Of a DNA stretch of 54,313 nt, positions 26,713 through 50,740 are shown piece by piece. Source of the DNA: Anaerolineae bacterium (GTDB taxonomy: Bacteria > Chloroflexota > Anaerolineae > JAAYZQ01); NCBI GenBank assembly GCA_016929795.1, contig JAFGIA010000342.1, positions 1 through 54,313 on the forward strand, read 5' to 3'. Every line of letters starts with the position of its first letter. Positions within the stretch are counted from its first letter, which is position 1. The translations under genes were made by a program, and so were the position numbers. The notes below the pieces were generated by a model. That model was not told the DNA's origin. It did no database searches and was given only the letters and a program-made list of their open reading frames with translations.

Positions 26713-27803
26713 GTGGATTCAAAAACAGAAGGAAACGGCGTGCACGTCAAGCTGAGCTTCCCCGGCGCCCATCCTCACCCCCGCCTGGAGCCGTTCAACC
26801 GCCTGGACACGCGCGTCTCGTACTTGACCGGCAGCGACCCGGCCCAGTGGCGGTCGGACGTGCCCGCCTGGGGTGGCGTGCGCTACGTGGCGCTCTATCC
26901 CGGCATCGACCTGGAGCTCACCGGCGAGGCGGACTGGCCGCTGCTGCGCGTAGACAGGTCGCCGGCGAAGGTGAGCGTGCGGCCACGCGGCGCACAGGCA
27001 TTCGAGGGAGCCGCGCCCTTTTCCCGGATGCCCCCCAGCGACTGGCTGTGTCGGCACGAGATGACAACCCTGGCGACCTGTTCTACGGTGCTTTCCTGGG
27101 CGGCAGTAGCCGGGAGGTTGGCTATGGTATCGTCGTGGATGAGGATGGAGCGGCTTACGTCACAGGCTACACCTACTCTGTCGACTTTCCCACCACACCG
27201 CGCGCCTTTGACACGAGCTATGGTGGTGGCCAATCCAGCGACGCCTTTGCCGTCAAGCTGGTGATAGGGGCTGAGGGGTACTCTATCTCCGGCAGGGTGA
27301 CGGATGCCGGCGGCGGGGGCCTCCCAGGCGTGACCGTCTCTGGAGGATGGGCTGGCACGGCCGTAACCAACGCCCATGGCGACTATGCCCTCAGACACGT
27401 TATCACTGGGACTTGCACGCTCACCCCAACGCTCGTGGGTTACACTTTTGACCCCATCACGCGCACCGTGTCGGTGCCGCCCGACGCCACCGGCCAGGAC
27501 TTTCAGGCCACGCAGTTGACCTACTCGATCAGCGGCCGTGTATCCGACGTCGATGACAATCCGATGGCCGGCGTCACGATCTCGGTCACGGGCGGCTACT
27601 CCGTCACCACGGACGTGTTGGGCACATACACCCTCACCAACCTGATCTCAGGAACCTACACCCTGACCCCGATGCTGGAGGGTTATGTCCTTGAGCCCAT
27701 CACGCGCACGGTTCACGTGCCGCCCAACGCTACCGGCCAGGACTTTCGTGCCGTGCCCGAGGGGTACCTGTTCTACCTGTCGCTGGTGCTCCGAAACTGG
27801 TGA
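26713..27803 (+). pseudogene. decayed SBBP-repeat/carboxypeptidase-regulatory secreted protein
   Basis: Fragments of one secreted protein in two frames. In one frame from about 26713 comes VHVKLSFPGAHPHPRLEPF...WRSDVPAWGGVRYVALYPGIDL, the N-terminal module usual before SBBP repeats. It loses coherence near 27050. A different frame then gives a single SBBP repeat (YGAFLGGSSREVGYGIVVDE ... PTTPRAFDTSYGGG), followed by two carboxypeptidase regulatory-like repeats (each starting YSISGRVxD and ending PPxATGQDF) and the tail FYLSLVLRNW. The signal peptide is missing and the join lacks expected sequence, so both 5' truncation and an internal deletion or frameshift have occurred. The intact 3' half, including the tail motif, suggests recent decay. 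Confidence 0.75.
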
Positions 27804-27893
27804 GTTGCCGGCGGGCGTGAGCAGCGGAAGGAGGCGCGAGCTTGCTCGGGGTTGGGTGCTAATGCATCTTTCCAGGATAACGCGGTTCTGCCG

Positions 27894-30656
27894 CTATTCT
27901 GGCGGCAGCATCCCCAGCTCACGCGCCCGTGCCACCGCCTGCGCACGGGCGTGCACACCGAGCTTGCCATAGATGCTGCCGGTGTGCGACTTGACGGTGG
28001 GCAGCGAGATAAAGAGGCGCCGCCCGATTTCAGCGTTCGACAGGCCCTGGGCCAGGAGCACGAGCACTTCCAGCTCGCGCTCCGACAGTGGCTCGACGAG
28101 GGGCTGATCCTCCGCTGCCACCGTGGCAACTGAGCCGGACGCAAAAGCGGCGAGCAACTGGCCGACGTAGCGCGGCGCGAGGCCGCGCGACCCGGCTCCC
28201 TTGAGCAATGCTGCCATCGGCCCACCCAGGTCGACAAAGAGGCGCACGTACCCTTCGGGCTCGGCCAGCGCGAGTGCCTGCGCCAGGGCGGCGAGGGCGG
28301 CGTCCCGCCGGTTCAGCGCGTGGCACGCCAGGGCGCGCAGCGCGTGCAGATCGATCACGCTCCCCCCGCGCCCGGCCTCGACGGCCGCCGGCAGCATCGC
28401 CTCGGCCAGGGCCAGGGCCTCGGCGGGCCGGCCCCCGGCCAGCAGCAGGCGGGCCAACGTCAGTTCCTCGAACTCGCGCAGATACTCGGTCTTGCCCACC
28501 TGTCGATAGTCGCGCGCCCAGGCAGAAGTGAGGTCGTATCGCCCCTGCGCCAGCCAGATGCGCGCCTGGTAGGCTGACGTCAGGATCTGCAGGCGAGGGA
28601 TGCCGTCGCGCTGCGCCCCCTCCACCGCCTGCCGGACGGCGCGGAGAGCACCGTCCGCATCGCCCTGCGCCTGTCTCACCTGGGCAAGCACCGCGTATAT
28701 GCTGCCAAAGCTGGCCGGGATTCCCCCCCGCGTGAGAAGGTCCAGTCCCTCGATCAAGTGCTGCCCGGCGGCCTGAAGGTCATTCCACTCGTACAGGATC
28801 TTGGCCTGCTCGAGCCCGACAAACCCGCCGACAAAGATGCTCTCGCCACGCGCCGTGCTCAGGTTCATCGCTTCCTGGCAGGTGCGCATCGCCTCGCGCA
28901 GCCGGCCCTGCACGATGAGCGTCTCGGCCAGATTGCAGGCAAAGGGCATGGCGGCAAAGCTGAGACCGGCGTCAAGGGCGATGTCAAGTGCTATTGAAAA
29001 CTCGTGCTCTGCCTCCACGACGTCGCCGGCCCGCAGAGCGGCCATGCCCAGGATTGCGGGTGTGCGAAAACGGGCGATGGGGTCGGCGTCGGGGGCCGCG
29101 GCGAGCGCCTGGCGAACCAGATCTCGAGCCTCGCGCACCTCACCCAGCACCACGGCGTAGGAGGCGCGATCCACGGTCACCAGCCGGGTGAGCCGCTCGA
29201 CTTCTGGCACCTCGGGGTGATTGTGCAGCCAGGACTCCAACTCGCCCAGCTCGCGGCTCGCCGTCTCGGGCTGGCCCGACACGTACAGGGTGCGCGAGGT
29301 AAAGAGCCACAGCCAGGGCTTGCTCCGGATCACGCCGTCGGGCAGCGCCTGCAGCCAGCGCCGGATCATGGTAATATCCGCGTGCGACCAGGTGCTGACG
29401 CGCGTAATGGTGCGCTCGATTACGCCGGCGGCCAGCTCATCGTCCTGGCCCGCCAGTGCATGGTTCACCGCCTCCACCCCGAACCCCTCCTGCTCGAACC
29501 AGGCTGCCGCCCGGTGGTGCAGCACAGGCACCTGCTCGGGCTCTACCTCGTGCAGCCGTGCCCGCAGCAGGTCGGCAAAGAGCGCATGGTAACGGTACCA
29601 CCGGTGCTCGTCGTCGAGCGGCATGAGAAAGATGTTGGCGTGGTCGAGGTGGGCGAGGACGTTGGAAGACTGGCAGGTTGGCAGACCAGTCTTCCAACCT
29701 TCCAACTTTCCAACCTTCCAACCTTCCAACAGTGCATCACACAACGGCGCGCACATCCGATCCAGGATCGACGTCCAGAGCAAAAAGCGCTGTATCTCCT
29801 CCGGCTGGCGGCTCAACACCTCGTCGGTCAGGTAGTCGAGGAAAAGGTGGTAGCGCCCTGAAAAGCCCGAGACAAACTCGGCACGGCTGGCAGGATCGCG
29901 CCCCTGCATCGACAGAGCTGCGAGCTGCAAGCCGGTGATCCATCCTTCGGTGCGCGATTCGAGCAGCGCGATGTCTGTGGGAGCCAGTCCCAGCCCCATC
30001 GACTCGTTCAAAAAACGTGCTGCTTCCTCGGTGCTGAAAGCCAGGTCGCGCTGGCGGATCTCGGTCACCTGCCCGCGCGCACGCAGGCGCGACAGGGGCA
30101 AGGGTGGGTCGTGGCGCGTGATGACTACCAGGTGCACCGTCGGGGGGAGGTGCTCCACCAGCAGGCCGAGCGCCTCGTGGATGCCCAGGTCATCGACCGC
30201 GTGATAGTCGTCGAGGGCGACCACCAGCGGCGCGCCGTGGGCAGCCAGGTCATTGATCAGCGTCGTAACCAGCGAAGGGATCGGGGGGAGGTGGGGCACT
30301 TTCAGCAGGGGCCGGATGCCCTGCGCGAGTGAGGCGTCGACCGTGTCCAGTGCGGCGACCAGGTAGGTGAAAAAGCGCGCGGGATCGCTGTCGCCACTGT
30401 CGAGCGACAGCCAGGCGACGCCTCTCGATGCCGGCTCGTCGTCACCCGTCGTCGAGCGCAGCCGGGCGAGCCAGCCACTGGCCAGCGTCGTCTTGCCCGA
30501 TCCTGCCGGCGCCGAGATCAGGGTGAGCCGGCGATACAGCCCGGCGTCAAGGCGGGCGATCAGGCGCGGGCGCGGCACCCAGCCGGGCCGGACGGGTGGG
30601 ATATAGAGCTTGGTGGTCAACAATGGCGTCGCCAATTCTCGCTGCTCCCGCCGCAT
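27894..30656 (-). CDS. MalT/LuxR-type STAND ATPase transcriptional regulator
   Basis: A 920-residue regulator. ATG 30656 (MRREQRELATPLLTTKLYIPP) matches the family N-terminus. Domains: NB-ARC/AAA ATPase with P-loop SAPAGSGKTTLA near 48 and Walker B LVVALDDYH near 150; a winged-helix/TPR sensor region of about 400-850; and a C-terminal LuxR helix-turn-helix (LSERELEVLVLLAQGLSNAEIGRRL ... TVKSHTGSIYGKL, about 855-915). Five tandem 8-bp repeats lie inside the coding sequence (29691-29730), adding LLEGWKVGKLEGWKTG between the ATPase and sensor parts. Ligand and target genes unknown; the divergent 78-residue gene is a candidate target. Confidence 0.94.
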   Translation of the reverse strand: MRREQRELATPLLTTKLYIPPVRPGWVPRPRLIARLDAGLYRRLTLISAPAGSGKTTLASGWLARLRSTTGDDEPASRGVAWLSLDSGDSDPARFFTYLVAALDTVDASLAQGIRPLLKVPHLPPIPSLVTTLINDLAAHGAPLVVALDDYHAVDDLGIHEALGLLVEHLPPTVHLVVITRHDPPLPLSRLRARGQVTEIRQRDLAFSTEEAARFLNESMGLGLAPTDIALLESRTEGWITGLQLAALSMQGRDPASRAEFVSGFSGRYHLFLDYLTDEVLSRQPEEIQRFLLWTSILDRMCAPLCDALLEGWKVGKLEGWKTGLPTCQSSNVLAHLDHANIFLMPLDDEHRWYRYHALFADLLRARLHEVEPEQVPVLHHRAAAWFEQEGFGVEAVNHALAGQDDELAAGVIERTITRVSTWSHADITMIRRWLQALPDGVIRSKPWLWLFTSRTLYVSGQPETASRELGELESWLHNHPEVPEVERLTRLVTVDRASYAVVLGEVREARDLVRQALAAAPDADPIARFRTPAILGMAALRAGDVVEAEHEFSIALDIALDAGLSFAAMPFACNLAETLIVQGRLREAMRTCQEAMNLSTARGESIFVGGFVGLEQAKILYEWNDLQAAGQHLIEGLDLLTRGGIPASFGSIYAVLAQVRQAQGDADGALRAVRQAVEGAQRDGIPRLQILTSAYQARIWLAQGRYDLTSAWARDYRQVGKTEYLREFEELTLARLLLAGGRPAEALALAEAMLPAAVEAGRGGSVIDLHALRALACHALNRRDAALAALAQALALAEPEGYVRLFVDLGGPMAALLKGAGSRGLAPRYVGQLLAAFASGSVATVAAEDQPLVEPLSERELEVLVLLAQGLSNAEIGRRLFISLPTVKSHTGSIYGKLGVHARAQAVARARELGMLPPE
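29661..29730. repeat. in-frame 8-bp tandem repeats and 13-bp inverted repeat within MalT-like gene
   Basis: Five units of cttccaac (one with tttccaac) run from 29691 to 29730. They are preceded by inverted arms at 29661-29673 and 29686-29698. Unit length is not a multiple of three, so gain or loss of one unit would shift the reading frame of the regulator. A degenerate stretch of the same 8-mer type occurs at 30784-30807, outside the gene. Confidence 0.85.
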
Positions 30657-30699
30657 GTGTATGGCACTGACTGCCGGCAAAGCGTGCGGTCCTGGCACC

Positions 30700-30728
30700 A
30701 TTGTACCATATTGCGGTCGTAGTGGCAA
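30700..30728 (-). promoter_or_regulatory. promoter of the MalT-like regulator
   Basis: Minus strand TTGCCA (30728-30723), 17 bases, TACAAT (30705-30700), about 44 bases before ATG 30656. Confidence 0.78.
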
Positions 30729-30816
30729 TGGACGCCTGGCACGGGTATAGGGCGACTGGATTGGGACTGGGAGTGGACCAACCTTCCAGGCTTCCGATCT
30801 TCCAGTCCTGCCGCTT

Positions 30817-30841
30817 CTGTGATACAATTCCTCTATCACAG
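30817..30841. promoter_or_regulatory. 8-bp inverted repeat around probable -10 of the 78-aa gene
   Basis: CTGTGATA (30817-30824) and TATCACAG (30834-30841) with a 9-base spacer. A rightward TACAAT (30823-30828) overlaps the left arm, so the palindrome covers the expected start site; an operator or a leader hairpin is possible. Confidence 0.55.
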
Positions 30842-30858
30842 AGGCCGGAGGATCACAG

Positions 30859-31095
30859 ATGGCAAACCTGTACGACAAGGAGTCGGGCAGACTGATCGGC
30901 CCCATCAGCGAGCGGGATCTCGACTTTTTGATGCGCCAGCTCGAGGAAGAGGGACTGGAAGATCAGGATTACTATATCGATCCGGTCACCCTCGACTGGT
31001 TCGAGGATCACGGCGCCGATCCGGCGCTCGTCGAAATGTTGCGCCATGCCCTGGGCGACAGCGAAGGGGTAGAGATTGCCTGGCGGGAAGATTGA
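30859..31095 (+). CDS. small conserved-looking acidic protein (78 aa)
   Basis: Acidic 78-residue protein of unknown function: MANLYDKESGRLIGPISERD, a helix DFLMRQLEEEGLEDQDYYID, then DWFEDHGADPALVEMLRHAL and a C-terminal VEIAW strand. This pattern, a GxI strand then two helices, recurs in small proteins of many unrelated bacteria as far as I recall, though no function is established. CCGGAGG lies before ATG 30859. It is divergent from the MalT-like regulator and could be its target. Confidence 0.78.
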   Translation: MANLYDKESGRLIGPISERDLDFLMRQLEEEGLEDQDYYIDPVTLDWFEDHGADPALVEMLRHALGDSEGVEIAWRED

Positions 31096-31112
31096 CGCCC
31101 TGAGCGCTCCTC

Positions 31113-31125
31113 GGTGCCTGGCACC
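31113..31125. repeat. GGTGCCTGGCACC palindrome between convergent genes
   Basis: A 13-base perfect palindrome in the 36-base gap between two convergent genes. No T-run follows. A partial copy (cctggcaccatt) lies at 30691-30702. It may be part of a dispersed repeat. Confidence 0.5.
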
Positions 31126-31131
31126 ATCCTG

Positions 31132-31806
31132 TTACGCCGGGTACACGTCCAGCACCATCACCACCGCGTCGGGTGCCACGATTCGGACATAGTCACGGAT
31201 GCCCTCCAGGTGGCGGCGCACGGCGGCTGGATCGATCCCGGCCGGCGCGTACACGGTGAAGAGCACCTGTTTTGTCTCCGGGCGGATCTGGGTGCGATCG
31301 TCGGGGCCATAGAGGATGCTCGACAGCACGCCACGCGCGTCGGCGATGTACATGTCGCCTTCCTTCAGCACCTGCTCGCTGCCGCCGAGCCGCACATACC
31401 GCTCTGTGCCACCAGCCACGTCGATGCGCACCGGCGCCTCCACTGCCGCCAGGTCATGCCCGGCAGTGAGCAACGCGTTCTGAAGCTCGGCCATGAACAT
31501 GGCCTCGACCAATGCCGACACACGTGGAATCGATTTCCCCTTCCACGCCACCGACTCGACCTGGTGCTGGACGTGGTAGCTCTTGCCAAAATGCTTGTAG
31601 TAGGTCGCGTACGCCTGCATCACAGGCTGTGCCTTGAGCGCAGCGCGGTCGAGCGGGCCATAGCGGGCGCGCAGATCTGCTTCCAACGCGTCCTTGCACC
31701 GGTCGAGCTCGGGGTTCGTTTCCGGGTTCGCCACGTCGCGCATCGTGAGCATGCCCACGGATGCGCCGGGGTATGCCTGCCGCCATGTCTCGGTGATCAG
31801 CATCAT
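31132..31806 (-). CDS. B3/B4 tRNA-binding-domain protein (PheT-like)
   Basis: A 224-residue stand-alone relative of the B3/B4 domain of phenylalanyl-tRNA synthetase beta chain, the domain that carries the editing site. Recognisable stretches are RDVANPETNPELDRCKDALEADLRARYG, YYKHFGKSYHVQHQVESV, LVEAMFMAELQNALLTAGHDL, and DARGVLSSILYGPDDRTQI. ATG 31806 is chosen because GGGAGG lies seven bases upstream. Free-standing B3/B4 proteins are assumed to hydrolyse mischarged tRNA, or to act on small amino-acid ligands; not proven. It has its own consensus promoter and is convergent with the 78-residue gene. Confidence 0.85.
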   Translation of the reverse strand: MMLITETWRQAYPGASVGMLTMRDVANPETNPELDRCKDALEADLRARYGPLDRAALKAQPVMQAYATYYKHFGKSYHVQHQVESVAWKGKSIPRVSALVEAMFMAELQNALLTAGHDLAAVEAPVRIDVAGGTERYVRLGGSEQVLKEGDMYIADARGVLSSILYGPDDRTQIRPETKQVLFTVYAPAGIDPAAVRRHLEGIRDYVRIVAPDAVVMVLDVYPA

Positions 31807-31833
31807 CTCCTTGCCTCCCTGCATCGTAAAGAG

Positions 31834-31862
31834 ATTCTAGCCCGGAAGGGCGTGGCTGTCAA
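31834..31862 (-). promoter_or_regulatory. promoter of the B3/B4-domain gene
   Basis: Minus strand TTGACA (31862-31857), 17 bases, TAGAAT (31839-31834), 28 bases before ATG 31806. Confidence 0.82.
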
Positions 31863-31952
31863 GCGTGATGCGTGAGCTGCTCCGCTCCTCAATACAGGAC
31901 GTGGCGGCCGAGCCTGCAACAGCCAAAGTGGGCAAGCCAGGGCAATCCCATT

Positions 31953-32032
31953 TGTCGTTGCGAAGAGCGCCAGCGACGAAGCAACCCCCTCTTGCGTAAG
32001 GGGGAGATTGCTTTGCTTCGCTCGCAATGACA
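31953..32032. repeat. palindromic 'IASEAKQSP'-type interspersed repeat
   Basis: About 80 bases form a long imperfect hairpin (ttgtcgttgcg...cgcaatgaca arms, inner ccccct/aggggg). Read on the minus strand it encodes VIASEAKQSPPYARGG, the peptide given by a widely scattered bacterial repeat. It lies in the 378-base gap between divergent genes, between their promoters. Nothing else was seen in that gap besides the two promoters. Confidence 0.8.
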
Positions 32033-32079
32033 GCTTCCAGGTGCCGAATGTGCTTGCCCTGTGGGCCAGCGACGGATGC

Positions 32080-32108
32080 TTGACGGCGGTGGGGGTCGGT
32101 GCTATACT
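32080..32108 (+). promoter_or_regulatory. promoter of the nucleotidyltransferase gene
   Basis: TTGACG (32080-32085), 17 bases, TATACT (32103-32108), about 77 bases upstream of GTG 32185. Confidence 0.75.
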
Positions 32109-32184
32109 CGGCTTGGCGGCCTGTGACAGGGCAGCTTGGCGCAAGCAGGTCGCTCGAAAGCGTGCGAGCACAAGGAGGATCGTC

Positions 32185-32973
32185 GTGCCGGGGGACGAGG
32201 TGTGGCCCACTGCCTACCCTGAGGTGAATGGCGCGCTGCGTGCCTTGCTTGCCGGCGTGCAGTCGGTGCTGGGCGATCTTGTCGTGGGGTTGTACGTCCA
32301 TGGATCGCTGGCCGGGGGTGGCTTTGAGCCGGGGCGGAGCGACATCGACTTTTGTGTTGCCACCAGCAGCCCACTGCCGGCAAGCCTGCTGCCCAGCCTT
32401 GAAGCGATGCATGTGCGCCTCGCGGCGAGTGGCCGGCCGTGGGTTGACAGGCTCGAAGGGTCGTACATCCCCCTGCGCGCGCTGCGCCGCTATGACCCTG
32501 CCGACGCCCACCATCCCGCGCTGCGCGTCGACGGGTCGTTTGACGTCGACCACCATGGCGTCGATTGGATCATCCAGCTCTACGTCATGCGCGAGCATGG
32601 GATCGCCGTGGCTGGCCCACCGCCCCGGACGCTGATCGATCCCATCCAGCCGGACGATCTGCGGCGCGCCGCGCTCGGCATCCTGCACGCCTGGTGGGTG
32701 CCGCAGCTCGCCGATCACACGCGCCTGTGTGCCGCAGAGTATCAGGCGTATGCGGTTCTGACCATGTGCCGCATCCTCTACACCCTGGAGCATGGCACGG
32801 TGGTGCCCAAGGCGGAAGCAGCGCGGTGGGCGCGGGGTATAGTAGATGAACCGGGGGCGCTGTTGATCGACCTCGCCCTCGCCTGGCGGCATAGGATGGC
32901 GCTCGACAGGCTGGAAGATGTGCTCGGTTTGATCCGAGACACGGTGCGACGCGCGGAACGATATTCAGGCTGA
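32185..32973 (+). CDS. aminoglycoside-nucleotidyltransferase-like protein (AadA-like)
   Basis: A 262-residue nucleotidyltransferase. The catalytic signature GSLAGGGFEPGRSDIDF (GS...DxD near residues 39-54) is followed by a C-terminal helical domain of the AadA/DUF4111 kind (LRRAALGILHAWWVPQLAD, YQAYAVLTMCRILYTLEHG). GTG 32185 is chosen because AAGGAGG stands eight bases before it. Related enzymes adenylylate streptomycin or spectinomycin, but many environmental members have unknown substrates, so resistance should not be assumed. It has its own promoter and is convergent with the metallo-hydrolase gene. Confidence 0.85.
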   Translation: MPGDEVWPTAYPEVNGALRALLAGVQSVLGDLVVGLYVHGSLAGGGFEPGRSDIDFCVATSSPLPASLLPSLEAMHVRLAASGRPWVDRLEGSYIPLRALRRYDPADAHHPALRVDGSFDVDHHGVDWIIQLYVMREHGIAVAGPPPRTLIDPIQPDDLRRAALGILHAWWVPQLADHTRLCAAEYQAYAVLTMCRILYTLEHGTVVPKAEAARWARGIVDEPGALLIDLALAWRHRMALDRLEDVLGLIRDTVRRAERYSG

Positions 32974-32995
32974 ATCGTATAGTGGGTAAATCCGA

Positions 32996-34102
32996 TTACA
33001 GGGTCACAGCGATGCCTGCATCCTCCGCCTCAGGGTAGCGCGGCCGGTAATCGTATTCGCGCCGCAGTGACTGTGCATCCCACTTGGTCGTCTGTGGCAC
33101 GCGGTAGTTAAAGAGGATCTCTTTGTCCTGTCCGCCGTAGGCCAGGATGCGCGCCATCGCCTCGTCGTCGGGGTGGTGGTGGCTGCGGCTGTCGGTGGAG
33201 ACGAGATAGCGCCGGCAGTCGACGAGGCTGAGCAGGCGGCGGGAGACGTTGTTCTTGCTGCCGTGGTGCGGTACCTTGAAGGCGTCCAGGGGCAGGCGTT
33301 TCAACCCCAGCTCGTTGAGGTATTGCTTGACCGAATCCTCGAGGACGGTGGGGTGCGCATCGCCTGCGAGCAGGCAGCGCGCGCCTTTGTATTCGAGAAG
33401 GAAGGCGATGCTGCTGCCGTTGGCGGCGCGGTTGTCGCCGCGGTAGCGTGTCTCCAGGAGTTGTTCGACGTCAGGCACAGGCAGGCCCCGCGGCCTGTCT
33501 TTGTCGGGGTCGTAGCGGCTGTCCTCGTCAAGGACATGGAGCCAGTCCCCGGTCGATCCGGGATCGGGATAGTCCTTCTCCGCCCGGGTGATGACTCTGC
33601 GCCATTCCTTGCGCAGCTTGGCCAGACGGGACGGCACGGGGGAAAGCAGGACCAGCTCGAGCCCTCCGGCGAACCGGATGCGGGGGAGTGGCACGCCAGG
33701 TTGGACTACTACAGGTCCGGCATCAAAGTGGCGATTCCAGCGCAGGCCGAGGTGCTTGAGACGGGCCGCGACGTACTCACCCTGCACAGGGCCGCGGGGA
33801 TCGCTGTCCGGAGGGCGCAGTTGATCCCAGCCGTTGAACCACACGTCGTCGAACTTGTAGTTGAGATCGGGGTTCTGGAGGAGGCGGACGACGCCGTCGA
33901 TGTGGTCATTGTCGACATGCGTGACGACGAGCAGCTCAAAGGTACGCTCCACCTCGCCAAGCCTCTTTATCCGCTCGCGCAGTGGTTCGTAGGTGGCATG
34001 GGTGCCGCCGTCGATCAGGATGCGGCGCACATTGTGTGGCGGGCCATACTCGATCCAGAGGCAGTCGCCATTGTCGGCGGGCAGCATTTCGATTCTGAGC
34101 AT
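32996..34102 (-). CDS. ComEC/Rec2-like stand-alone metallo-beta-lactamase-fold hydrolase
   Basis: A 368-residue cytoplasmic protein with the ComEC-type MBL fold but no membrane part: LPADNGDCLWIEYG, LIDGGT, THVDNDHIDGVVRLL (HxHxDH-type site with Val/Asn substitutions), LLAGDAHP, FKVPHHGSKNN and VSTDSRSHHHPDDEAMA. GGGAG lies five bases before ATG 34102. Stand-alone members occur both in nucleic-acid metabolism and as parts of defence loci; no defence partner is visible here, so function is open. The promoter at 34142-34170 lies next to a palindromic element. Confidence 0.88.
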   Translation of the reverse strand: MLRIEMLPADNGDCLWIEYGPPHNVRRILIDGGTHATYEPLRERIKRLGEVERTFELLVVTHVDNDHIDGVVRLLQNPDLNYKFDDVWFNGWDQLRPPDSDPRGPVQGEYVAARLKHLGLRWNRHFDAGPVVVQPGVPLPRIRFAGGLELVLLSPVPSRLAKLRKEWRRVITRAEKDYPDPGSTGDWLHVLDEDSRYDPDKDRPRGLPVPDVEQLLETRYRGDNRAANGSSIAFLLEYKGARCLLAGDAHPTVLEDSVKQYLNELGLKRLPLDAFKVPHHGSKNNVSRRLLSLVDCRRYLVSTDSRSHHHPDDEAMARILAYGGQDKEILFNYRVPQTTKWDAQSLRREYDYRPRYPEAEDAGIAVTL

Positions 34103-34141
34103 TTTCACTCCCGCGGTTCTCTACAATTTCCTGGATGACTG

Positions 34142-34170
34142 CTTGTATCACTATTCATTACTTTTGTCAA
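34142..34170 (-). promoter_or_regulatory. promoter of the ComEC-like gene
   Basis: Minus strand TTGACA (34170-34165), 17 bases, TACAAG (34147-34142). The palindromic element starts seven bases upstream of the -35. Confidence 0.65.
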
Positions 34171-34176
34171 GTCACG

Positions 34177-34254
34177 GTATCTGCTCAATAATCGGGGGTT
34201 GGGGTGTAGGGCGGATTGGCAATCCGCCCTACACCCCCCAAGTTATTGAGGTGA
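34177..34254. mobile_element. MITE-like palindromic element, copy 2 (diverged)
   Basis: Related to the element at 24791-24870: same inner stem core (gtagggcggatt-ggc-aatccgccctac; 17-bp arms 34201-34217 and 34221-34237) and the same right flank (ccccaagttattgag). Outer arms are ctcaataa (34184-34191) and ttattgag (34243-34250). The terminal repeats have diverged and no clear target duplication remains. It lies between convergently pointing and leftward genes, upstream of the ComEC-like promoter. Confidence 0.8.
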
Positions 34255-34279
34255 GGGAATTATGCTTTGCCCATCAGGG

Positions 34280-37200
34280 TCAGTGCCTGACTACGATCGG
34301 GAGATAGATGTGATGGATGGCGCTGGTTGTGGCGAAGGACCAGGTGAGTGGTGCTGTCATGGCGTTGCCCCACCCATCCTCAGCCGTGAGGGTGGCGTGG
34401 TAGGTTGTTCTGCCATCCAACCCCGCGTGCGTGGCTGTGACCACGGTGCCGGACAGGTTCCAGCGCAGGAGCCAGCCGCCAGGATCAGGGCTGAGCGTGA
34501 GCTGCAGGTTCAGTGGCGCTACCTCTTCGTCGAACTCGATGACCAGGGGCGCGTCGAGCGGCACGTCATCCGCCCCGGCGGCGGGTGACGTGCGCAGCAC
34601 GGTGGGTGGTGTCGTGTCGGGGATGACCCACTGGTAGGCAACGCCGCCAACCGTCCAGCCGTCGATCCGCTCGCGCAGGGCGAGCTCGAAGGCCAGGCCA
34701 GCTTCTCCCTCAAAGCGGAGGCCGACCGACACGGCCTCGCCGGCCAGCATCGGAATGGCGCCGATGGTGGCCGAGACGGCGCCGGTGGCCTGGATCTCTT
34801 GCGTCGGTGTCAGTACCTCGATGCCTGCCCCCCAGCTTACCCCGTAGGCCAGCCAGCGATCGAACAGCTCGCCCGGCAGCGAGATCGTGATCGTTCCGTT
34901 CAGGGGAAAGGTGCGCCGCTCGACGACCAGGTCCACGTCGTGGGGCCGGTCGTAGATGTTGACCAGCCGCACGTCGGCCTGTTTGACATCGCGGCCGTCG
35001 CGCATCGTCCCGGGGTTGGGATAGATCTCGACGTTGCGCCAGGAGACATTGTTGTCGTAGGGCACCCACTGTGGCGCGCACTCGAGCCCCGCGTTGAAGG
35101 GATCGCCCGCGGCGTCGATCACGGTTTGTAGACAGGTGTGCCCGCTGCGCACCGGCACCCACGTGGTGCTCAAGATGCGCACTTCGCCCGGCTGAAGATC
35201 TTCCAAGCTGACCGTGCCGATATAGGCCCAGTCGCCGCAGCGCACGCCGAGCGACGACTCGATCCAGTAGACGTCGAGTGTCCCACTGGTTGGGAACTGG
35301 CCCCGGTTGCGCAGCCGGACATACACGGTGTTGTCGACGCCCTCGATCGGCTCCTCGTGGATCAGGCCGCCATCAGGCTGGTGTCGCACCCAGATGTCGG
35401 GCGAGGTGTACCAGTTGTCGAACCCACTCGGCACGGCGCCGGTGTCGTCAGGATTGTCTTTTGTCCAGGCATCGGGTGGGTGCGGAACCGCGCTCACCAC
35501 TCGCGAGTAGACGTCGTTCGCAGGGTTGCTGTCGCCGACGAGGGCGTGTGAGCAGGTTATGGTGTACGCCCCTTGCTGGGTGGGTGTGTAAGCCGGAAAG
35601 TCGAGCAGATCCCAGGCAGCGGGCTGGACCTCGCCGCTGAGCCTGACCTCTGTGTACACGGGCGCGCCACCATACTCGATCTGACAGGTCGCTGCCACAC
35701 TGACTACCGCCTGGCTGCCGATGTTGCGCAGGGTCGCCTGCACATCGAAGGGCATGCCGAGCGAGACCTGCCCGCCAGGCGCGACATTGACCACAGCCAG
35801 GTCGTGCAAGGGCGGATTGGATTCGGTCACAACCACGACCTGGTCCACAGAGATGCCGGAGAGGGTGTCGACCACCCCGCTGGGCCAGGTGACCTCGACG
35901 GTCACCGTGCCGTCGTACGCCCCCAGCCCGAACTCGACGGGCAGGCTGTCCTGGGACGCAAACCCCGAGCCACCACTCACTTCTCGGATCTGGCTCAGCC
36001 CTGCCGCCACGACCTGCACGCGGGCACCGATCCCATCCGCATTGCTGTACGAACCGGACGTGCGCACGTGCAGCCAGTGGTTGCCGTTCCCCCGGTTGCG
36101 GTACAACAGGTTCGGACCATCGTTGCGGTTGGTGACATAGGCGTCCAGGTCGCCGTCGCCGTCATAATCGGCCGAGGCAATCCCGTGCGCGTTGGCGCTG
36201 TGGGTGAGGCCGGGGTGTTGGGCAAAGGTTCCGTCGCCGTTGTTGAGGTAGAGGGCATTCGGACCATCGTTGACGACCCATACGTCCAGGTCGGCATCAT
36301 TGTCCAGGTCGCCCAGGGTGACGCCAATGCCGTTGCCCGGGTCGTTGACACCCGCCGGAGCGGACATGTTGGTAAAGACGCCGCCGTCGTTGCGGTAGAA
36401 CGCATTCTCCTCACCATAGTTGGTGACGTACAGGTCGAGGTCGCCATCGTTGTCGAGGTCGCCCCAGGCTGTGCCGCGGCTAAAGCGGGCATCGCTCACC
36501 CCTGCTGCCGCCGTGACGTCGGTGAACGTCCCGTCGCCATTGTTGCGAAAGAGTGTGTTGGGGCCGTTCTGGGCAATGTAGAGGTCGGGATCTCCGTCGT
36601 CGTCATAGTCACCCCACGCCGCACCCTCGCCTCCCTGGCTACTGCCGGCCAGTCCAGCCGGGCCGGCGACATTACTAAAGGTGCCATCACCCTGGTTGTG
36701 ATAGAGGGCATGGTCGGCCCAGTAGCCGACGACGAGCAGGTCGAGCCAGCCATCGGCGTCATAGTCGGCCCACGCCACGGCTGTGTTGTCCGCCGGGTTG
36801 TCCACCCCCGCGGCCGCGCCCACCTCGGCAAAGGTCCCGTCGCCCTGGTTGCGGTAGAGCAGGTTGGGCTGGTTGTGGCGGGCCACATAGAGGTCGAGGT
36901 CGCCGTCTTGATCATAGTCGGCCCAGGCCGCGCCAAAGCCTGCCCCGCCATCTCCCACCCCGCCCGCAGCGCTCGAGTCGGCAAAGGTCCCGTCGCCCTG
37001 GTTTGCGTACAGAATGTCCGCTTCGCCGCCATCCACGCCACCCTGGGCAACAAACAGGTCCGCGTCGTCGTCGCCGTCATAGTTGCCCCAGGCGATGCCC
37101 AGGCCATCGCCCGTGTCGTCGGTGCCAGCACTGGTGGCGACCTCATCCAGGATCGGGGTGGCAAGCACGCCGGTAAACTCGTACGCCCCCATATCAGGCC

Positions 37201-39079
37201 AGGCGTCTCGCGGCATGCCATCCAGATCGTGGACTGGCGCGCCAGCGGGTGTGCCACGGTCCACAACCGGGGACCAGGCCGTCAGGTGATAGTCCCCGCC
37301 AGGTAGATCCAGAAAGACGGGGTCGTCATTCGTATTGCCTTCACCTGGCCAGCCACCCTCCACGTCCGAGTAAGCCACCTGGCCCGTCGCGTTCCCCCCG
37401 AGCGAGATGGACCAGCCGTTGTAGTAGACAATACTGTTGGTGATGGTCAGCGTCCAGCCCTGGTCCGTGTTGAGCAGCACGCCGCCGTCGTTGTTGGCGA
37501 TCGTAGCGTTCATGATCCGTCCGGTCCCATTGAGGTGCACGCCGATGGTGCCGTGGTTATCGGCGACGAGCGTGTTGCTGAGGGTCAACGCACCACTGTG
37601 CACCCGGATGCCCGAGGCGCCCTGCTCGGCCTGGTTGTGGACGATCCGGCTGTCGACGATGGTCAACTGCCCGTGAAGGTTCACGACCCCTCCGGCTCCC
37701 TGGCTTTCGAGCCCGCCGTAGGCCCAGTTGTCGCGTACCAGGCAGTTGCGCAGGGTGATGGCCTGGTCGTCGGCATACACGCCGCCGCCCATCTGGCCGC
37801 TGCCGCCCGCGATTGTCAGCCCATCAAGTACCGAGCCACCGCTGCCCCCCGTATAGCGCACCGCCGAACTGCCCCAGTGGGCGAGAACGCCTGGCGAGAG
37901 CGCCGGGTTGGCGTCGTGCAGCGTCCAGTGGAGCCCATCCAGCGATTCGGCATAGTGGATGGCACCGGCCTCATAGTTCGTGTACCACATCTTGAGCAGG
38001 CCACCGTCATCAATCACGACCGGGTCGCCGATTGATGTCGCCTCGGACACGACCGGGCCGGTCAGGAAGCGGGTCCAGGAGATGCCGTCGGTGCTGGTGA
38101 CGACGCCGATGGCCGGGGGACCCAGCGGTCCGGCAGCCGCGTACCACATCCAGTAGGTGCCGCCCAGCTTGAGCACACTGGGCCCCCACAACGCGGCCTC
38201 GTCCCACTCGCCAGCCTGTGGGTAGAGCACCGGCCCCTGCTTGGTCCAGGTGACCTCGTCTGGCGCCGTGGCGTAGGCGATGATCGCCCCCTGGTCGCCG
38301 ATGGCGTGGTACCAGCGCTGGTAGGTGGCGCCATCGTGCAGCACGCTGCCGTGGCCGGCTGCCTGCTGATCGTACCCTTCCGGGCCGGCCTGGATGATCG
38401 GGTTGCCAGGATACTTGTGCCACGAGATGCCGTCGGTGCTGGTGGCGTAGCCCGTCTGTCGTAATCCATCATCGCCACCGCCCTCATACCAGAGTTTGTA
38501 GAGGCCGCCCTCTTGGATCACGTTGCCACCATGCTCGCCCGACGCGCCGTCCCAATCGCCCGGGGTGCCGGCAAGCACCGGATTGGAGATCGATTTCGTC
38601 CAGGTCAGGCCATCTGTGGAGGTGGCCAGGCCGAGGGCGAGCTGGCTGTCCAGGTTGTAGCCGTCGTACCACATCTTTAGCTCGGCGCCGTCGCGGATGA
38701 CGGCCGGCTTGGCGACCTGGCGGCCATCCCAGTCGGCCGGCGTGGAGTGGTGATCGTTGAGGAGGCTCGTCTCATACAGCGCCAGGTCGCGCTGCCAGCC
38801 AGGTGGGCCGGAATAGCCACCTTCGATCGTGATCGGCAGCGTGATGCTCAGGTGCTCCGTGTAGGTGCCCTGTGCCACGCGGATCGTGTCTCCGGCAAAG
38901 GCGTTGTCGATCGCCTCCTGGATGGTGGTATAGTCGCAGCCGGTGCCCGGCGGCGGGCAGACGGTCAGCGTGGCGTCGATCTGCTGGGCGGCGACGCCCA
39001 CCGCTGCGAGTGTGACGAGCAGGGCCAGCGCCGCGAGGCTGCCGGCCAGGGCCAATCTTCTCTTGCCTTGTTCGTTCAT
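34280..39079 (-). CDS. giant secreted beta-helix/five-blade propeller/FG-GAP/Ig protein
   Basis: A 1599-residue exported protein. Signal peptide at 1-32 (RRLALAGSLAALALLVTLAAVGVAAQ). A beta-helix begins with TTIQEAIDNAFAGDTIRVAQGTY (about 45-110) and is interrupted at about 108-400 by five repeats of the GH43-like pattern 'KMWYxG...GxATSxDGxxW'. The helix resumes at GGSVLDGLTIAGG. Then come seven FG-GAP/VCBS repeats with DxDxDxD calcium loops, a UnbV/ASPIC domain (NHWLHVRTSGSYSNADGIGA), CARDB-like domains, a Big_5 Ig domain (TSPAAGADDVPLDAPLVIEF) and the tail IYLPIVVRH. AAGGAAGGAT precedes ATG 39079. It is last in the 42228-to-34280 transcription unit; adhesion or polysaccharide binding is inferred. 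Confidence 0.9.
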   Translation of the reverse strand: MNEQGKRRLALAGSLAALALLVTLAAVGVAAQQIDATLTVCPPPGTGCDYTTIQEAIDNAFAGDTIRVAQGTYTEHLSITLPITIEGGYSGPPGWQRDLALYETSLLNDHHSTPADWDGRQVAKPAVIRDGAELKMWYDGYNLDSQLALGLATSTDGLTWTKSISNPVLAGTPGDWDGASGEHGGNVIQEGGLYKLWYEGGGDDGLRQTGYATSTDGISWHKYPGNPIIQAGPEGYDQQAAGHGSVLHDGATYQRWYHAIGDQGAIIAYATAPDEVTWTKQGPVLYPQAGEWDEAALWGPSVLKLGGTYWMWYAAAGPLGPPAIGVVTSTDGISWTRFLTGPVVSEATSIGDPVVIDDGGLLKMWYTNYEAGAIHYAESLDGLHWTLHDANPALSPGVLAHWGSSAVRYTGGSGGSVLDGLTIAGGSGQMGGGVYADDQAITLRNCLVRDNWAYGGLESQGAGGVVNLHGQLTIVDSRIVHNQAEQGASGIRVHSGALTLSNTLVADNHGTIGVHLNGTGRIMNATIANNDGGVLLNTDQGWTLTITNSIVYYNGWSISLGGNATGQVAYSDVEGGWPGEGNTNDDPVFLDLPGGDYHLTAWSPVVDRGTPAGAPVHDLDGMPRDAWPDMGAYEFTGVLATPILDEVATSAGTDDTGDGLGIAWGNYDGDDDADLFVAQGGVDGGEADILYANQGDGTFADSSAAGGVGDGGAGFGAAWADYDQDGDLDLYVARHNQPNLLYRNQGDGTFAEVGAAAGVDNPADNTAVAWADYDADGWLDLLVVGYWADHALYHNQGDGTFSNVAGPAGLAGSSQGGEGAAWGDYDDDGDPDLYIAQNGPNTLFRNNGDGTFTDVTAAAGVSDARFSRGTAWGDLDNDGDLDLYVTNYGEENAFYRNDGGVFTNMSAPAGVNDPGNGIGVTLGDLDNDADLDVWVVNDGPNALYLNNGDGTFAQHPGLTHSANAHGIASADYDGDGDLDAYVTNRNDGPNLLYRNRGNGNHWLHVRTSGSYSNADGIGARVQVVAAGLSQIREVSGGSGFASQDSLPVEFGLGAYDGTVTVEVTWPSGVVDTLSGISVDQVVVVTESNPPLHDLAVVNVAPGGQVSLGMPFDVQATLRNIGSQAVVSVAATCQIEYGGAPVYTEVRLSGEVQPAAWDLLDFPAYTPTQQGAYTITCSHALVGDSNPANDVYSRVVSAVPHPPDAWTKDNPDDTGAVPSGFDNWYTSPDIWVRHQPDGGLIHEEPIEGVDNTVYVRLRNRGQFPTSGTLDVYWIESSLGVRCGDWAYIGTVSLEDLQPGEVRILSTTWVPVRSGHTCLQTVIDAAGDPFNAGLECAPQWVPYDNNVSWRNVEIYPNPGTMRDGRDVKQADVRLVNIYDRPHDVDLVVERRTFPLNGTITISLPGELFDRWLAYGVSWGAGIEVLTPTQEIQATGAVSATIGAIPMLAGEAVSVGLRFEGEAGLAFELALRERIDGWTVGGVAYQWVIPDTTPPTVLRTSPAAGADDVPLDAPLVIEFDEEVAPLNLQLTLSPDPGGWLLRWNLSGTVVTATHAGLDGRTTYHATLTAEDGWGNAMTAPLTWSFATTSAIHHIYLPIVVRH

Positions 39080-39119
39080 GCTATCCTTCCTTGCTTCATG
39101 TGTCGGACTCGGCATGCCT

Positions 39120-41951
39120 CTAGCCATTCCTGGAGACGATGGGCAGGTAGAAGCGATAGAGGCCGAAATCGACTGTGGTGACATCAGAGAAGCCGCCGGC
39201 TGTGGCGGTGATGACTGCGATGCCGCCCGATCCACTGGTGGTGAGTGTGGCCACAGCCACGCCGCGGGCGGTGAGGGCCGTGGCGTCGATGGTGCCGAGG
39301 CTCGAGACAAAGCTCACCACGGTGCCGTCGGAGGCGAGGCCATCGTATTGGCCCGACACGGTGGCGCTGACGATGGCCGTGGTGGCATTGATCACCGCCG
39401 CATCGACTTCTATGCCCCCCGGTGGGTTGTAAAGAAACTCGACCGTGACAAATGCCGTGGCGGTGACGTTGGCTGTAGCGGTGAAGGTGTACACGCCGGG
39501 GAAGGTTACTCCACCTGCCCAGCCACCCTGGAGGTGGCCATCGCTCGTCGTTTTGACGCGATTGAACGGGGGTGCCCACGGCTGCTCGTAGGTGATGGTG
39601 ACCGTGGTGCCGTCGGCTACCCAATTCTCATCGCGATCCACGACCAGGGCGTGGTAAAAGAGCTCGTGGAGGCCGTTGGCATAGACGATGCCGGCCGGGT
39701 CGGTCCACATCGTGATGGTCACTGGCTGGCCCGGTTCGGGCGCAGGCCGGCTGTAGGCCCACGTGCCGCTAAAGCCGGCATAGAGGGTCTGTGTGGGCGC
39801 ATCGTTATTCACGATCAGGGATCTTGGTTCCATCTGGGGCGTGCCGCTGTTGGTGTCGCTGTCGAGCCAGGTCTGCCCGCCGTCGGGCGTCTCGGCGATA
39901 TAGCCCCAGCCACCCAGGTAGACGTGGCTGGGCACGTGGGGATCGATGGCCAGCAGGTAGCCACTGGCCTGGTTGAATGGCGGGTTGTTGGAGCGAATGA
40001 GCGTCCAGGAGTCACCGCCGTCCGTGCTCTTGTAGACGTCATAGGGTCCCTTGGTCGCGGCATAGATGACGTTAGGCTTTTGGTAGTCCACGGCGATGGA
40101 GCCGATGGTATGGGAGGTGACCAGGGTCGGTTGCCACGAGTCGCCGCCGTCGGTGCTGCGGTAGATGGTGCCCTCACAGCCTATCGGGTCGCACGCCTCG
40201 CCGCCGATATACACCACGCCGGCATTCGTCGGATCGATGGCAATGACCTCGATCCGGGACGATTCAGGGCGGGTAAAGACGACGGTCCACGAGGCGCCGT
40301 CATCCAGGCTGCGCACCACCACGGCCTGGTCGCCCGACCAGTTGGGGTGGTCCGCGCCGGCGGCATAGACGGTGCCGGTCATCGACGGGGCGATCTCGAT
40401 GTCCAGGATCGACTCATCTCCGCCAGAGCAGTCGCTGATGATAAAGGTTGGGGTAAAGACTGGCTCGAAGGTCAGCCCACCGTCCGCGCTGCGGACCACG
40501 GGCCCGCGGTCGCAGTTGTACTCGCCGCCATAGATAATGTCGGGGTTGTCGGGATTGATGGCAAAGGCGCCCATGCACGCTTCGTCGACCATCGTCCAGT
40601 TCCAGCCTCCGTCGGTGGAAAGCCAGCCGCCGTTGCAGTCGGTGGCGGCGAACATCTTGGTGTGATTCGACGGATCGACGTCGAGGTCACGGGGCGAGAG
40701 TGGCCCCTCGATCTGGTCGTTGCGCTCTTCCCAGTTCCAGTTGGCGCCGTCGTAGGTGCCTTTGAGCACCCCGCGCTGCTCACCACCGGCGTAGAGGGTC
40801 GGCGATGCCTGCCCCAGGTCGAACTCGAAGGCGGTGCCTCCATCCCAGATGCCGGTCACCGGGCTCCAGGTGCCAGGGTCGCCGTTTGAGGCGCTGGCCC
40901 AGATCTGCTGCCACCAGCGCGTATAGACGGTGTTGGGGGGCTCGAAAAGGAGTGGGCCGCCGGCGTCGCTGAGCACCTGGGTCCAAGTTGGGCCTCCATC
41001 CGAGGTGCGAAAGACGAGGGGCGGGCCTTCGGTCCAGGTGCCCCAGCCGCTCGCGGCGTACACCGTCAGTGGATCGCCGGGATGGCCCAGCAAGGACTGG
41101 ACGTGTGCATTGGTCAGGGTGTGTGTATAGGGCCAGGTGGCGCCGCCGTCGTCGCTCCGGTAGAGGATGGTGTCGCTGTGGGCACTGCCGCCCCACTGGC
41201 GAGCCGAGGCCCACACGACGGAAGGAGCGGCCGGGTGGTTCATCACGGCCAGGATACCCCCCTCTCCGTCAGGTGGGGTGGTGGTCAGGATCGGCGTCCA
41301 CGTCAGGCCGGTGTCGTCCGTGCGGTAGACGAGGCCGCTCTGCACCCGATCCGGTCCCACAAAGTGATAGAACCAGCCGCCAATGATGGCCACGTCAGTG
41401 TCGGTGGGGTGGACAGCGACGTCGAGCCACACCCCGCGGTCGGTCGAAGAAAAGGCCGGCGTCCAGCTCACGCCGCTGTCATGGCTGGTATAGATGGATA
41501 CACCGGCGCCATCCGGGTTAAAGGCCCCGGCATAGACGACGGTCCCGGTGACGCCCAGGGAGTAGACCTGGTGCCCGGCAGTAAAGACAGGCGTCCAGGT
41601 GGCCGCGCCGTTGGTCGTCTTGTAGATGATCGACGGCCCGGAATCGTAGGTGCCCAAGGGGGCAACGGCGGCGTATACCGTGCCCGAGATCGTGGGGTGC
41701 ACGGCCAGGGCACACACCTGCCCACCCGCGCCGATGGGGCCACCGAGCGGCGTCCACACCCCGTCACCGGATGGCGCCGCGGGCCGCGCCGCCCGGGCAA
41801 AGTCAGGCTGGTGCGGCGAGCCCTGACTGTCTGCCATGGCGACGGCGCCAGCTGCCAGGAGCAGGCCCAAGGCCAACAGGCCCATCGCGAGGGTGAGACT
41901 GAGCCAAACGGCTTCAGGGCGAGATTCCTTCCTCAGAGTGGGTTGTTTCAT
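39120..41951 (-). CDS. secreted BNR/sortilin-like beta-propeller protein
   Basis: A 943-residue exported protein. A signal/anchor segment lies at about 15-41 (LSLTLAMGLLALGLLLAAGAVAMA). Most of the protein is repeated BNR/Asp-box units such as IYKTTNGAATWTPVF, VYRTDDTGLTWTPIL and IYRSTDGGDSWQPTL, forming one or two sortilin (VPS10)-type propellers (about 60-720). A beta domain and a Big_1 Ig-like domain follow (DGTVVSFVSSLGTIDATALTARGVA), and the protein ends in YRFYLPIVSRNG. AAGGAAAAG lies ten bases before ATG 41951. It is 40 bases upstream of the FG-GAP gene and 64 bases downstream of the 70-residue gene, so all three are probably co-transcribed. Confidence 0.9.
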   Translation of the reverse strand: MKQPTLRKESRPEAVWLSLTLAMGLLALGLLLAAGAVAMADSQGSPHQPDFARAARPAAPSGDGVWTPLGGPIGAGGQVCALAVHPTISGTVYAAVAPLGTYDSGPSIIYKTTNGAATWTPVFTAGHQVYSLGVTGTVVYAGAFNPDGAGVSIYTSHDSGVSWTPAFSSTDRGVWLDVAVHPTDTDVAIIGGWFYHFVGPDRVQSGLVYRTDDTGLTWTPILTTTPPDGEGGILAVMNHPAAPSVVWASARQWGGSAHSDTILYRSDDGGATWPYTHTLTNAHVQSLLGHPGDPLTVYAASGWGTWTEGPPLVFRTSDGGPTWTQVLSDAGGPLLFEPPNTVYTRWWQQIWASASNGDPGTWSPVTGIWDGGTAFEFDLGQASPTLYAGGEQRGVLKGTYDGANWNWEERNDQIEGPLSPRDLDVDPSNHTKMFAATDCNGGWLSTDGGWNWTMVDEACMGAFAINPDNPDIIYGGEYNCDRGPVVRSADGGLTFEPVFTPTFIISDCSGGDESILDIEIAPSMTGTVYAAGADHPNWSGDQAVVVRSLDDGASWTVVFTRPESSRIEVIAIDPTNAGVVYIGGEACDPIGCEGTIYRSTDGGDSWQPTLVTSHTIGSIAVDYQKPNVIYAATKGPYDVYKSTDGGDSWTLIRSNNPPFNQASGYLLAIDPHVPSHVYLGGWGYIAETPDGGQTWLDSDTNSGTPQMEPRSLIVNNDAPTQTLYAGFSGTWAYSRPAPEPGQPVTITMWTDPAGIVYANGLHELFYHALVVDRDENWVADGTTVTITYEQPWAPPFNRVKTTSDGHLQGGWAGGVTFPGVYTFTATANVTATAFVTVEFLYNPPGGIEVDAAVINATTAIVSATVSGQYDGLASDGTVVSFVSSLGTIDATALTARGVAVATLTTSGSGGIAVITATAGGFSDVTTVDFGLYRFYLPIVSRNG

Positions 41952-50080: not shown

Positions 50081-50740
50081 ATGTCAAGTAAAGCGCTTTC
50101 TACACGCAACCTGACCGTGGGCCTGGCGCTGATCGCGCTCCTGGCCGTGCTCTTTACCCTGGGAGTGGCTGCCCAGGATCGCGGCACCAGCACTACCGGC
50201 GATCTGCCCGAGAAGGTCACGCCAGTGGAAGAGGGCGAGCTTCTTGCCGAGACCACCAGCCCCAGCCATGCCTTTTTCTACAAGCGCTACTCGGCCGACA
50301 CCTTTGTGCCCGGCGTCTCTGACATGGAGTACCGCTACGAGACCGGAGGCTGCATGTCTCGCACCGGCGGCGCCTCGTACACTCACACGGCGCACAGCGT
50401 GCAATTGCCGGAAGGCGCCGAGATCACCTATATGCGCCTCTACTTCTATGACATGGACGCCGAAAACGACGCGGTGGCACAGCTCATGTCGTACGACGGT
50501 CAGGGCGGCGTGGAACTGATCGACCTGGTTCGGTCGGAGGGAACTCCCGGCTGGAGCAGCGCGGGGAGCGGGTCGCCCATCTCCCACGTGGTCAACAACA
50601 AGGACGAAACGCTGGCGCTGTGGCTCTATTTCGGGGAGAGCACCGACAGCAACTTACGGCTGTGCGCGGTGCGCATCCAGTACAAGTACACGCTGTCGAG
50701 GACCAGCTTGCCGCTGATCCTGAACGAGAGCAACCCTTAA
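50081..50740 (+). CDS. small secreted protein with C-terminal LPLILN tail
   Basis: A 219-residue exported protein of unknown function. Signal peptide about 1-31 (LTVGLALIALLAVLFTLGVAAQ). The mature part is a beta-rich domain (HTAHSVQLPEGAEITYMRLYFYD, ALWLYFGESTDSNLRLCAVRIQYKY) resembling a jelly-roll, with two cysteines that could pair. It ends SRTSLPLILNESNP, a weaker version of the YLPxVxRN tail of the large secreted proteins. AAGGAG precedes ATG 50081 and the gene is monocistronic. Confidence 0.82.
   Translation: MSSKALSTRNLTVGLALIALLAVLFTLGVAAQDRGTSTTGDLPEKVTPVEEGELLAETTSPSHAFFYKRYSADTFVPGVSDMEYRYETGGCMSRTGGASYTHTAHSVQLPEGAEITYMRLYFYDMDAENDAVAQLMSYDGQGGVELIDLVRSEGTPGWSSAGSGSPISHVVNNKDETLALWLYFGESTDSNLRLCAVRIQYKYTLSRTSLPLILNESNP

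Follow-up and report, generated by a model that had tools for sequence, protein, structure and literature searches.

Four related protein ends in the window

We analysed the 54,313-nucleotide contig JAFGIA010000342.1 of an Anaerolineae bacterium (Chloroflexota; assembly GCA_016929795.1), called here the window, in which proteins of different families end in nearly the same short peptide. Three of these ends, FYLSLVLRNW* (stop 27803, + strand), IYLPIVVRH* (stop 34280, − strand) and FYLPIVSRNG* (stop 39120, − strand), were confirmed by translation and share the shape [YF]L[PS]xVxR plus one or two residues to the end; SLPLILNESNP* (stop 50740, + strand) was confirmed as the end of a fourth protein (Table 1). 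These ends are divergent members of a tag already catalogued as a putative sorting motif, the YLP-box tail, whose consensus reads [IVL]-[YF]-L-P-[LIV]-[VIL]-x-[RK]-(mostly 0 to 4 residues)-COOH.

The near-identity of the tails, noticed in the initial annotation, withstands a shuffle test: a relaxed motif, written only after the tails had been seen, lies at most 12 residues from the stop in 3 of the 42 called window proteins (internally in 2), and none of 2000 shuffles reached three (mean 0.04). Chance resemblance is ruled out by these shuffles and by the genome counts of profiles A2 and A6 given below. The fourth tail is not among these three, having neither the aromatic residue nor the Arg. 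It was nevertheless described as related and, judged by homology only, is a divergent member: in its homolog P0145 the corresponding end reads FLPFVTR. The window tails stop 1–4 residues past the motif and, as first described, are followed by no hydrophobic helix with a basic end. A signal-peptide-like start is present on the giant (predicted in the database as P0149, 1599 aa), the propeller and the small fourth protein, i.e. three of four. The claim of three unrelated secreted proteins stands in full for two only, because the open reading frame (ORF) ending at 27803 is a remnant without an in-frame export signal.

The tail had been called undescribed, which does not hold: NCBIfam release 20 names two models, NF050076 (sort_motif_YLP; 11 positions, cut-off 15 bits) and NF053834 (ultrashort_CTERM), both as “YLP-box putative sorting motif-containing protein”. 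The tails studied here have the residues of the YLP-box and stand on exported proteins of unrelated families. In locus L184 positions 2–11 of NF050076 lie on YPIYLPLVLR with 13.3 bits against the cut-off of 15. Counted by E-value and not by cut-off, NF050076 is matched at E≤1 by 12/30 and 8/9 tailed proteins, and at E≤10 by 12/35 in the P0003 alignment and 4/28 in the P0002 alignment, the window members not being among the matches shown. As 40-residue pieces, the four window tails gave no match at E≤10 with either model, perhaps lost in the filters of HMMER, and 0/23 members of the P0004 (fourth-protein) family were flagged. Lys-, Asn- and SLPLILN-type ends may lie outside the NCBIfam models. 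Searches of the open-access literature of PubMed Central, at the level of listings and abstract openings, found no account of the YLP tail.

Table 1. Coordinates of the tails, their proteins and a recurrent gene pair (window positions, or locus:positions)
Feature	Position	Strand	Remarks
Tail FYLSLVLRNW	27771..27800	+	Last 10 residues of the SBBP / carboxypeptidase-regulatory-domain remnant; Ser replaces Pro
Multidomain-protein remnant (SBBP, CarboxypepD_reg) with tail at end	27048..27803	+	Start is the gene-caller's choice
Tail IYLPIVVRH of the beta-helix / FG-GAP / ASPIC / Big_5 protein	34283..34309	−	25/29 homologs of the C-terminal part tailed (by eye)
Secreted giant: Beta_helix, choice-of-anchor Q, FG-GAP, UnbV_ASPIC, CARDB, Big_5	34280..39079	−	Domain matches
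Tail FYLPIVSRNG of the BNR/Sortilin-type propeller	39123..39152	−	35/42 closest homologs tailed, Ig-like domain between or not
Secreted BNR / Sortilin-Vps10 propeller protein, 943 aa	39120..41951	−	Domain matches
Divergent tail SLPLILNESNP of the small secreted protein	50705..50737	+	Leu-Pro invariant in 23 aligned sequences; tail pLDDT <50 past the folded beta domain
Small secreted protein, 219 aa, beta-rich fold, without Pfam family	50081..50740	+	Sequence and model
Recurrent secreted/tailed gene pair	L165:1054-3184, L166:2197-3607, L084:1744-3433, L085:5851-7635, L177:8131-9541, L184:1766-3624

Distribution and position of the tail

A scan of a genome collection of 84,980 species with a simple pattern (YLP, three hydrophobic codons, Arg, any codon, stop) returned 60 stretches, 44 of them in records whose names give Chloroflexota or a group within it; of the remaining 16, one carries no phylum in its record title. 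The Chloroflexota matches end an ORF of at least 75 aa in 43/46 cases vs 3/16 elsewhere, and 13 of these 16 outside matches close frames below 50 aa. Profile A2, built from 41 tails with no stop included and favouring the Arg type, gave 868 matches at E≤0.5 (median 20, range 1–106) in 33 Chloroflexota genomes, which are those already holding pattern-scan stretches, vs 12 in 16 other genomes (chance expectation about 8). With profile A6, built from 62 tails of homologs of two window proteins, we counted 646 matches in 17 tail-rich and 48 in six further tail-bearing Chloroflexota genomes, vs 2 in 18 tail-less Chloroflexota (genomes picked for zero A2 matches) and 5 in 16 other genomes. In an even sample of 201 Chloroflexota, at least 64 have any A2 match at E≤0.2 and at least 12 have four or more. 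The tail is restricted to certain lineages. Genome G206, sampled evenly over 800 kb, held no convincing tail by the first regular expression; its stop-to-stop ORFs have one terminal and three internal copies, its called proteins none terminal and two internal.

The position of the motif was examined in 40 stretches with strong A2 matches (hit loci), taken from ten tail-rich genomes plus G231 and encoding 261 called proteins. They contain 63 motif matches, of which 49 lie within 14 residues of the stop, 26 of these with exactly two residues following the Arg position. With a stricter motif we also searched mostly unselected DNA: G206 and G110 (not chosen for matches), G209 (partly chosen) and 13 arbitrary contigs of G017. 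Here 1264 called proteins gave seven terminal and six internal copies, i.e. a roughly 25-fold enrichment per position at the end, and seven G017 stretches chosen for matches gave 12 terminal copies and no internal one. Several internal copies lie in large secreted proteins, some ahead of LTD-like or CARDB-like sequence (names by eye).

Among 68 homologs the Arg position is occupied by Arg in 42, Lys in 20, Asn in 3 and another residue in 3, with two residues after it in 28/68. The evidence as a whole points to a code in which Lys, Asn and SLPLILN variants stand beside the Arg type. Every synonymous codon of Leu, Pro, Val and Arg is in use, and 46 distinct 21-mers were found among 47 tails, which rules out the spread of one DNA segment; selection acts on the peptide.

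Two arrangements of the motif may be recorded here. L165:2-451 has tandem tail motifs near one C-terminus (YLPLVTRN...YLPLVIRD). In L146:11243-14334 (G209) a protein with an internal YLPLVMRN is directly followed by a small protein ending in LPDTG, a helix and basic residues.

Cargo, fold and anchor slot

The tail marks exported proteins of many unrelated families. The 30 complete proteins longer than 130 aa, out of 49 tailed, match 73 Pfam families, the commonest being DUF11, in 8. Export-signal candidates were called by a crude rule, with 5'-open ORFs excluded and a few “tailed” rows being chance matches of the regular expression. In the hit loci they make up 30/38 tailed vs 54/179 other proteins (p=6e-8), so that the association with signal peptides proposed initially is borne out. 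The corresponding figures are 13/14 vs 37/118 in G017, 27/30 vs 39/108 in the pattern loci, 3/5 vs 153/748 in G209 and G206 together and 3/3 vs 73/289 in G110.

A gene pair recurs, in which a secreted protein adjoins a tailed protein of about 90 aa (Table 1). Several of the secreted partners contain an FTYQGRLT-like sequence; most have no Pfam family and one has Peptidase_S74.

The tail could be the closing beta-strand of a shared domain, Ig-like or other, since its residues are beta-prone and many cargo proteins end in Ig-like domains. We consider this very improbable in view of the homologs. Among the best 120 of 837 homologs of the propeller, the tail is present by a strict rule in 35 of the 42 closest (P0005–P0046) vs 6 of the 77 more distant, and it is kept whether or not an Ig-like domain intervenes: in P0012, P0016 and others the propeller leads straight to the tail. 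Its Leu-Pro is invariant in the alignment of P0003 with 34 of the 42 closest; the eight left out include five without a strict tail. For the C-terminal part of the giant, 25 of 29 homologs (P0150–P0178) are tailed by eye, and P0161 and P0177 have no Ig-like Big_5, the conserved QWVIP running directly into the tail. Ten weaker homologs (P0179–P0188) are all without tail. In the fourth-protein family 22 of 25 homologs could be aligned (three are without that end) and Leu-Pro is invariant in all 23 rows, one of which ends FLPFVTR. The AlphaFold model of the fourth protein (P0004, mean pLDDT 75.6) places the last strand at residues 192–203 and gives residues 207–219, the tail, pLDDT <50 and no secondary structure. 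Some tails come after Pro/Thr linkers (L007, L013, L018, L036), and a tail profile run against solved structures gave no match up to E=10. Judged from the homologs without Ig domain and from the predicted disorder in this one model, the tail does not belong to a fold. A fold search with P0004 gave weak matches, many of them carbohydrate-binding jelly rolls.

Of the other giant homologs, P0155 and P0173 have neither kind of ending, and P0169 and P0170 end in IFKDGFED in place of the YLP tail (48–49% identity over 92–93% of the queried part). IFKDGFED may be a further tag of this kind, short and without a helix, that takes up the C-terminal slot of the YLP tail.

The NCBIfam choice-of-anchor Q domain allows a comparison of endings after one and the same domain. 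It is above cut-off in 23/25 Chloroflexota genomes, and the window giant matches it with 29.1 bits (cut-off 25). Of 30 loci, 23 reach the protein's own stop; judged by eye, 17 of these close with a clear tail of the Arg, Lys or Asn type, one with a weak one (FLPSLAC), two with a membrane helix and basic residues, and three with neither. One helix case belongs to the exosortase-bearing G017. Where at most 20 residues follow the domain, the tail is present in 10/10. The tail fills the slot where other choice-of-anchor Q proteins carry membrane anchors; it is therefore tied to anchoring, beyond its co-occurrence with secretion. This is a stronger argument for an alternative anchor than the counts of lipoboxes and helices. 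Of the proteins with an export signal, a smaller share of the tailed than of the untailed has a lipobox (1/34 vs 32/192, p=0.035), and most of the nine untailed proteins with a helix-basic end resemble ordinary membrane proteins.

Candidate machinery and interpretation

The initial annotation attributed the tail to dedicated machinery. This is inferred only: the families examined are absent, non-discriminating or largely cargo. Exosortase (PF09721) is above cut-off in 1/36 genomes (G017) and sub-threshold in G192. Omp85 (PF01103) was found in 0/36 Chloroflexota and in 2/2 controls, SprA_N (PF14349) in 0/23 Chloroflexota and in one of two controls, the Bacteroidales one. Sortase (PF04203) occurs in 17/17 tail-rich but also in 13/19 tail-less genomes. 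From these searches exosortase, SprA and Omp85 are not the general answer; sortase and C25 peptidase are still candidates.

C25 peptidases (PF01364) are above cut-off in 16/17 tail-rich vs 1/19 tail-less genomes. The lone tail-less genome, G037, has its own Lys-type tail ends, and in the tail-rich G209 C25 is sub-threshold only. Of a proposed co-occurring protease family, then, the co-occurrence is found for C25, although the C25 proteins are largely tailed themselves, and sortase does not discriminate. By eye 16/24 C25 proteins end in or near a tail and 8/24 do not. Because of these tail-like ends the C25 peptidases are probably better read as cargo, though an enzyme could be among them. C25 as the sorting enzyme, attractive by the conserved Arg/Lys and the co-occurrence, was set aside for the same ends and the sub-threshold result in G209. 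We also note that C25 peptidases of the gingipain/PorU-like kind are common in tail-rich Chloroflexota in which no SprA was found (L241–L260, L193, L201, L203), and that two similar ones end FLPLVAGD and FLPLVMGD, the Arg missing.

The tail can be compared with known C-terminal tags. LPXTG, PEP-CTERM, GlyGly-CTERM and MYXO-CTERM have a tripartite architecture, as described in PMC11980579. Like these, the YLP tail is C-terminal, stands on exported proteins of many families, occurs dozens of times per genome and is exchangeable after the same upstream domain; unlike them, it has no transmembrane helix and no cytoplasmic basic end. It differs from PEP-CTERM by the single exosortase-bearing genome, and from LPXTG in that sortase does co-occur but the YLPLVLR tail has no LPXTG-type motif before a membrane helix. 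The C-terminal domain (CTD) of type IX secretion is a whole domain in size. The tail resembles it in being C-terminal, without membrane helix and on surface proteins, with C25 peptidases around; it differs in having only about ten residues and in the lack of SprA and Omp85 matches. A BAM beta-signal of the outer membrane or a type IX signal would also be a short hydrophobic C-terminal signal without helix, and one tailed protein matches NF033707 PorU; given the Omp85 and SprA_N results, we regard this explanation as the most remote of those considered.

The present evidence strengthens the reading of the tail as a sorting or anchoring signal and argues against several machineries. The sorting signal proposed initially is supported by the C-terminal enrichment, by the linkage to export signals and by the fact that the tail is not the last Ig strand. 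A role of the putative tag in surface sorting or retention is likely. With somewhat less assurance, the YLP-box tail is probably a non-membrane C-terminal tag of about ten residues that keeps or places exported proteins at the surface in some Chloroflexota lineages. Given a role in surface sorting or retention, docking rather than cleavage is slightly better than an even guess, the internal copies favouring docking over an obligatory C-terminal cleavage. The tag would act outside the membrane, after export, and a conserved envelope partner would read it, most likely by docking of the hydrophobic YLPLVL segment in the manner of a short linear peptide; an extended tail, and occasionally a copy inside the chain, would then be enough. 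The complete picture is offered tentatively, at a little short of an even chance: some Chloroflexota would use a display system unlike the tripartite ones for tens to perhaps more than 100 exported proteins per genome, in which an envelope partner outside the cell reads a mostly C-terminal, also internal, tag by docking and not by cleavage, the Lys-, Asn- and SLPLILN-variants belonging to the same code. If true, bacteria with a multilayered and little-understood envelope would have a display tag that carries no membrane helix; the motif has so far been catalogued as “putative” only.

The main rival is covalent processing, in which a transpeptidase, sortase-like or an Arg/Lys-specific C25 acting in the manner of PorU, cuts near the Arg/Lys and links the cargo to the envelope. 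The fixed position of Arg or Lys (62 of the 68 homologs), its preferred spacing to the stop, the slot otherwise held by cleaved tags, and the presence of sortase and C25 in tail-rich genomes speak for it, as does the Lys-type tail of G037. Yet sortase is also frequent in tail-less genomes, G209 encodes a separate classical LPDTG-helix-basic protein while its C25 is sub-threshold, the C25 proteins are mostly cargo-like, and a cut at an internal copy would split the protein; we hold covalent processing to be unlikely, if worth keeping in mind. Still less probable is that the tail serves to stabilise or fold released proteins and has no part in surface anchoring: internal copies exist and some cargo proteins are hydrolases able to act away from the cell, but the tail stands in place of anchors on other proteins and is lineage-restricted, related domains elsewhere being without it. 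Fewer candidates are left for the machinery in view of the internal copies and of the missing exosortase, Omp85 and SprA.

Several results weigh against the sorting tag proposed here. The tail is not phylum-wide: few of the 201 sampled Chloroflexota (12, a lower bound) have four or more A2 matches, so that it is lineage-specific within the phylum. A position right at the stop, as first claimed, does not hold throughout: 14/63 matches in the hit loci, some plainly unrelated by eye, and 7/15 elsewhere are internal, the latter from stop-to-stop ORFs of the mostly unselected DNA (8 terminal vs 7 internal). Eight of the 38 tailed ORFs fail the export-signal rule, some of them looking secreted by eye. 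The difference in C-terminal helix-basic ends (0/34 tailed vs 9/192 untailed) is not significant (p=0.36), and the AlphaFold model of an 86-aa tailed protein (pLDDT 43) is uninformative. Finally, no partner or enzyme emerged among the neighbours of tailed genes, where only a conserved secreted pair stood out.

Two minor observations may be added. In contig C175 of G209 (L146–L149) the tail motif occupies mirrored positions and seemingly identical genes come back in inverted form (L148); the contig looks like a palindromic misassembly. In the window, positions 19248-22985 (− strand) form a single ORF in which a peptidase S41 domain comes after an amidohydrolase domain.

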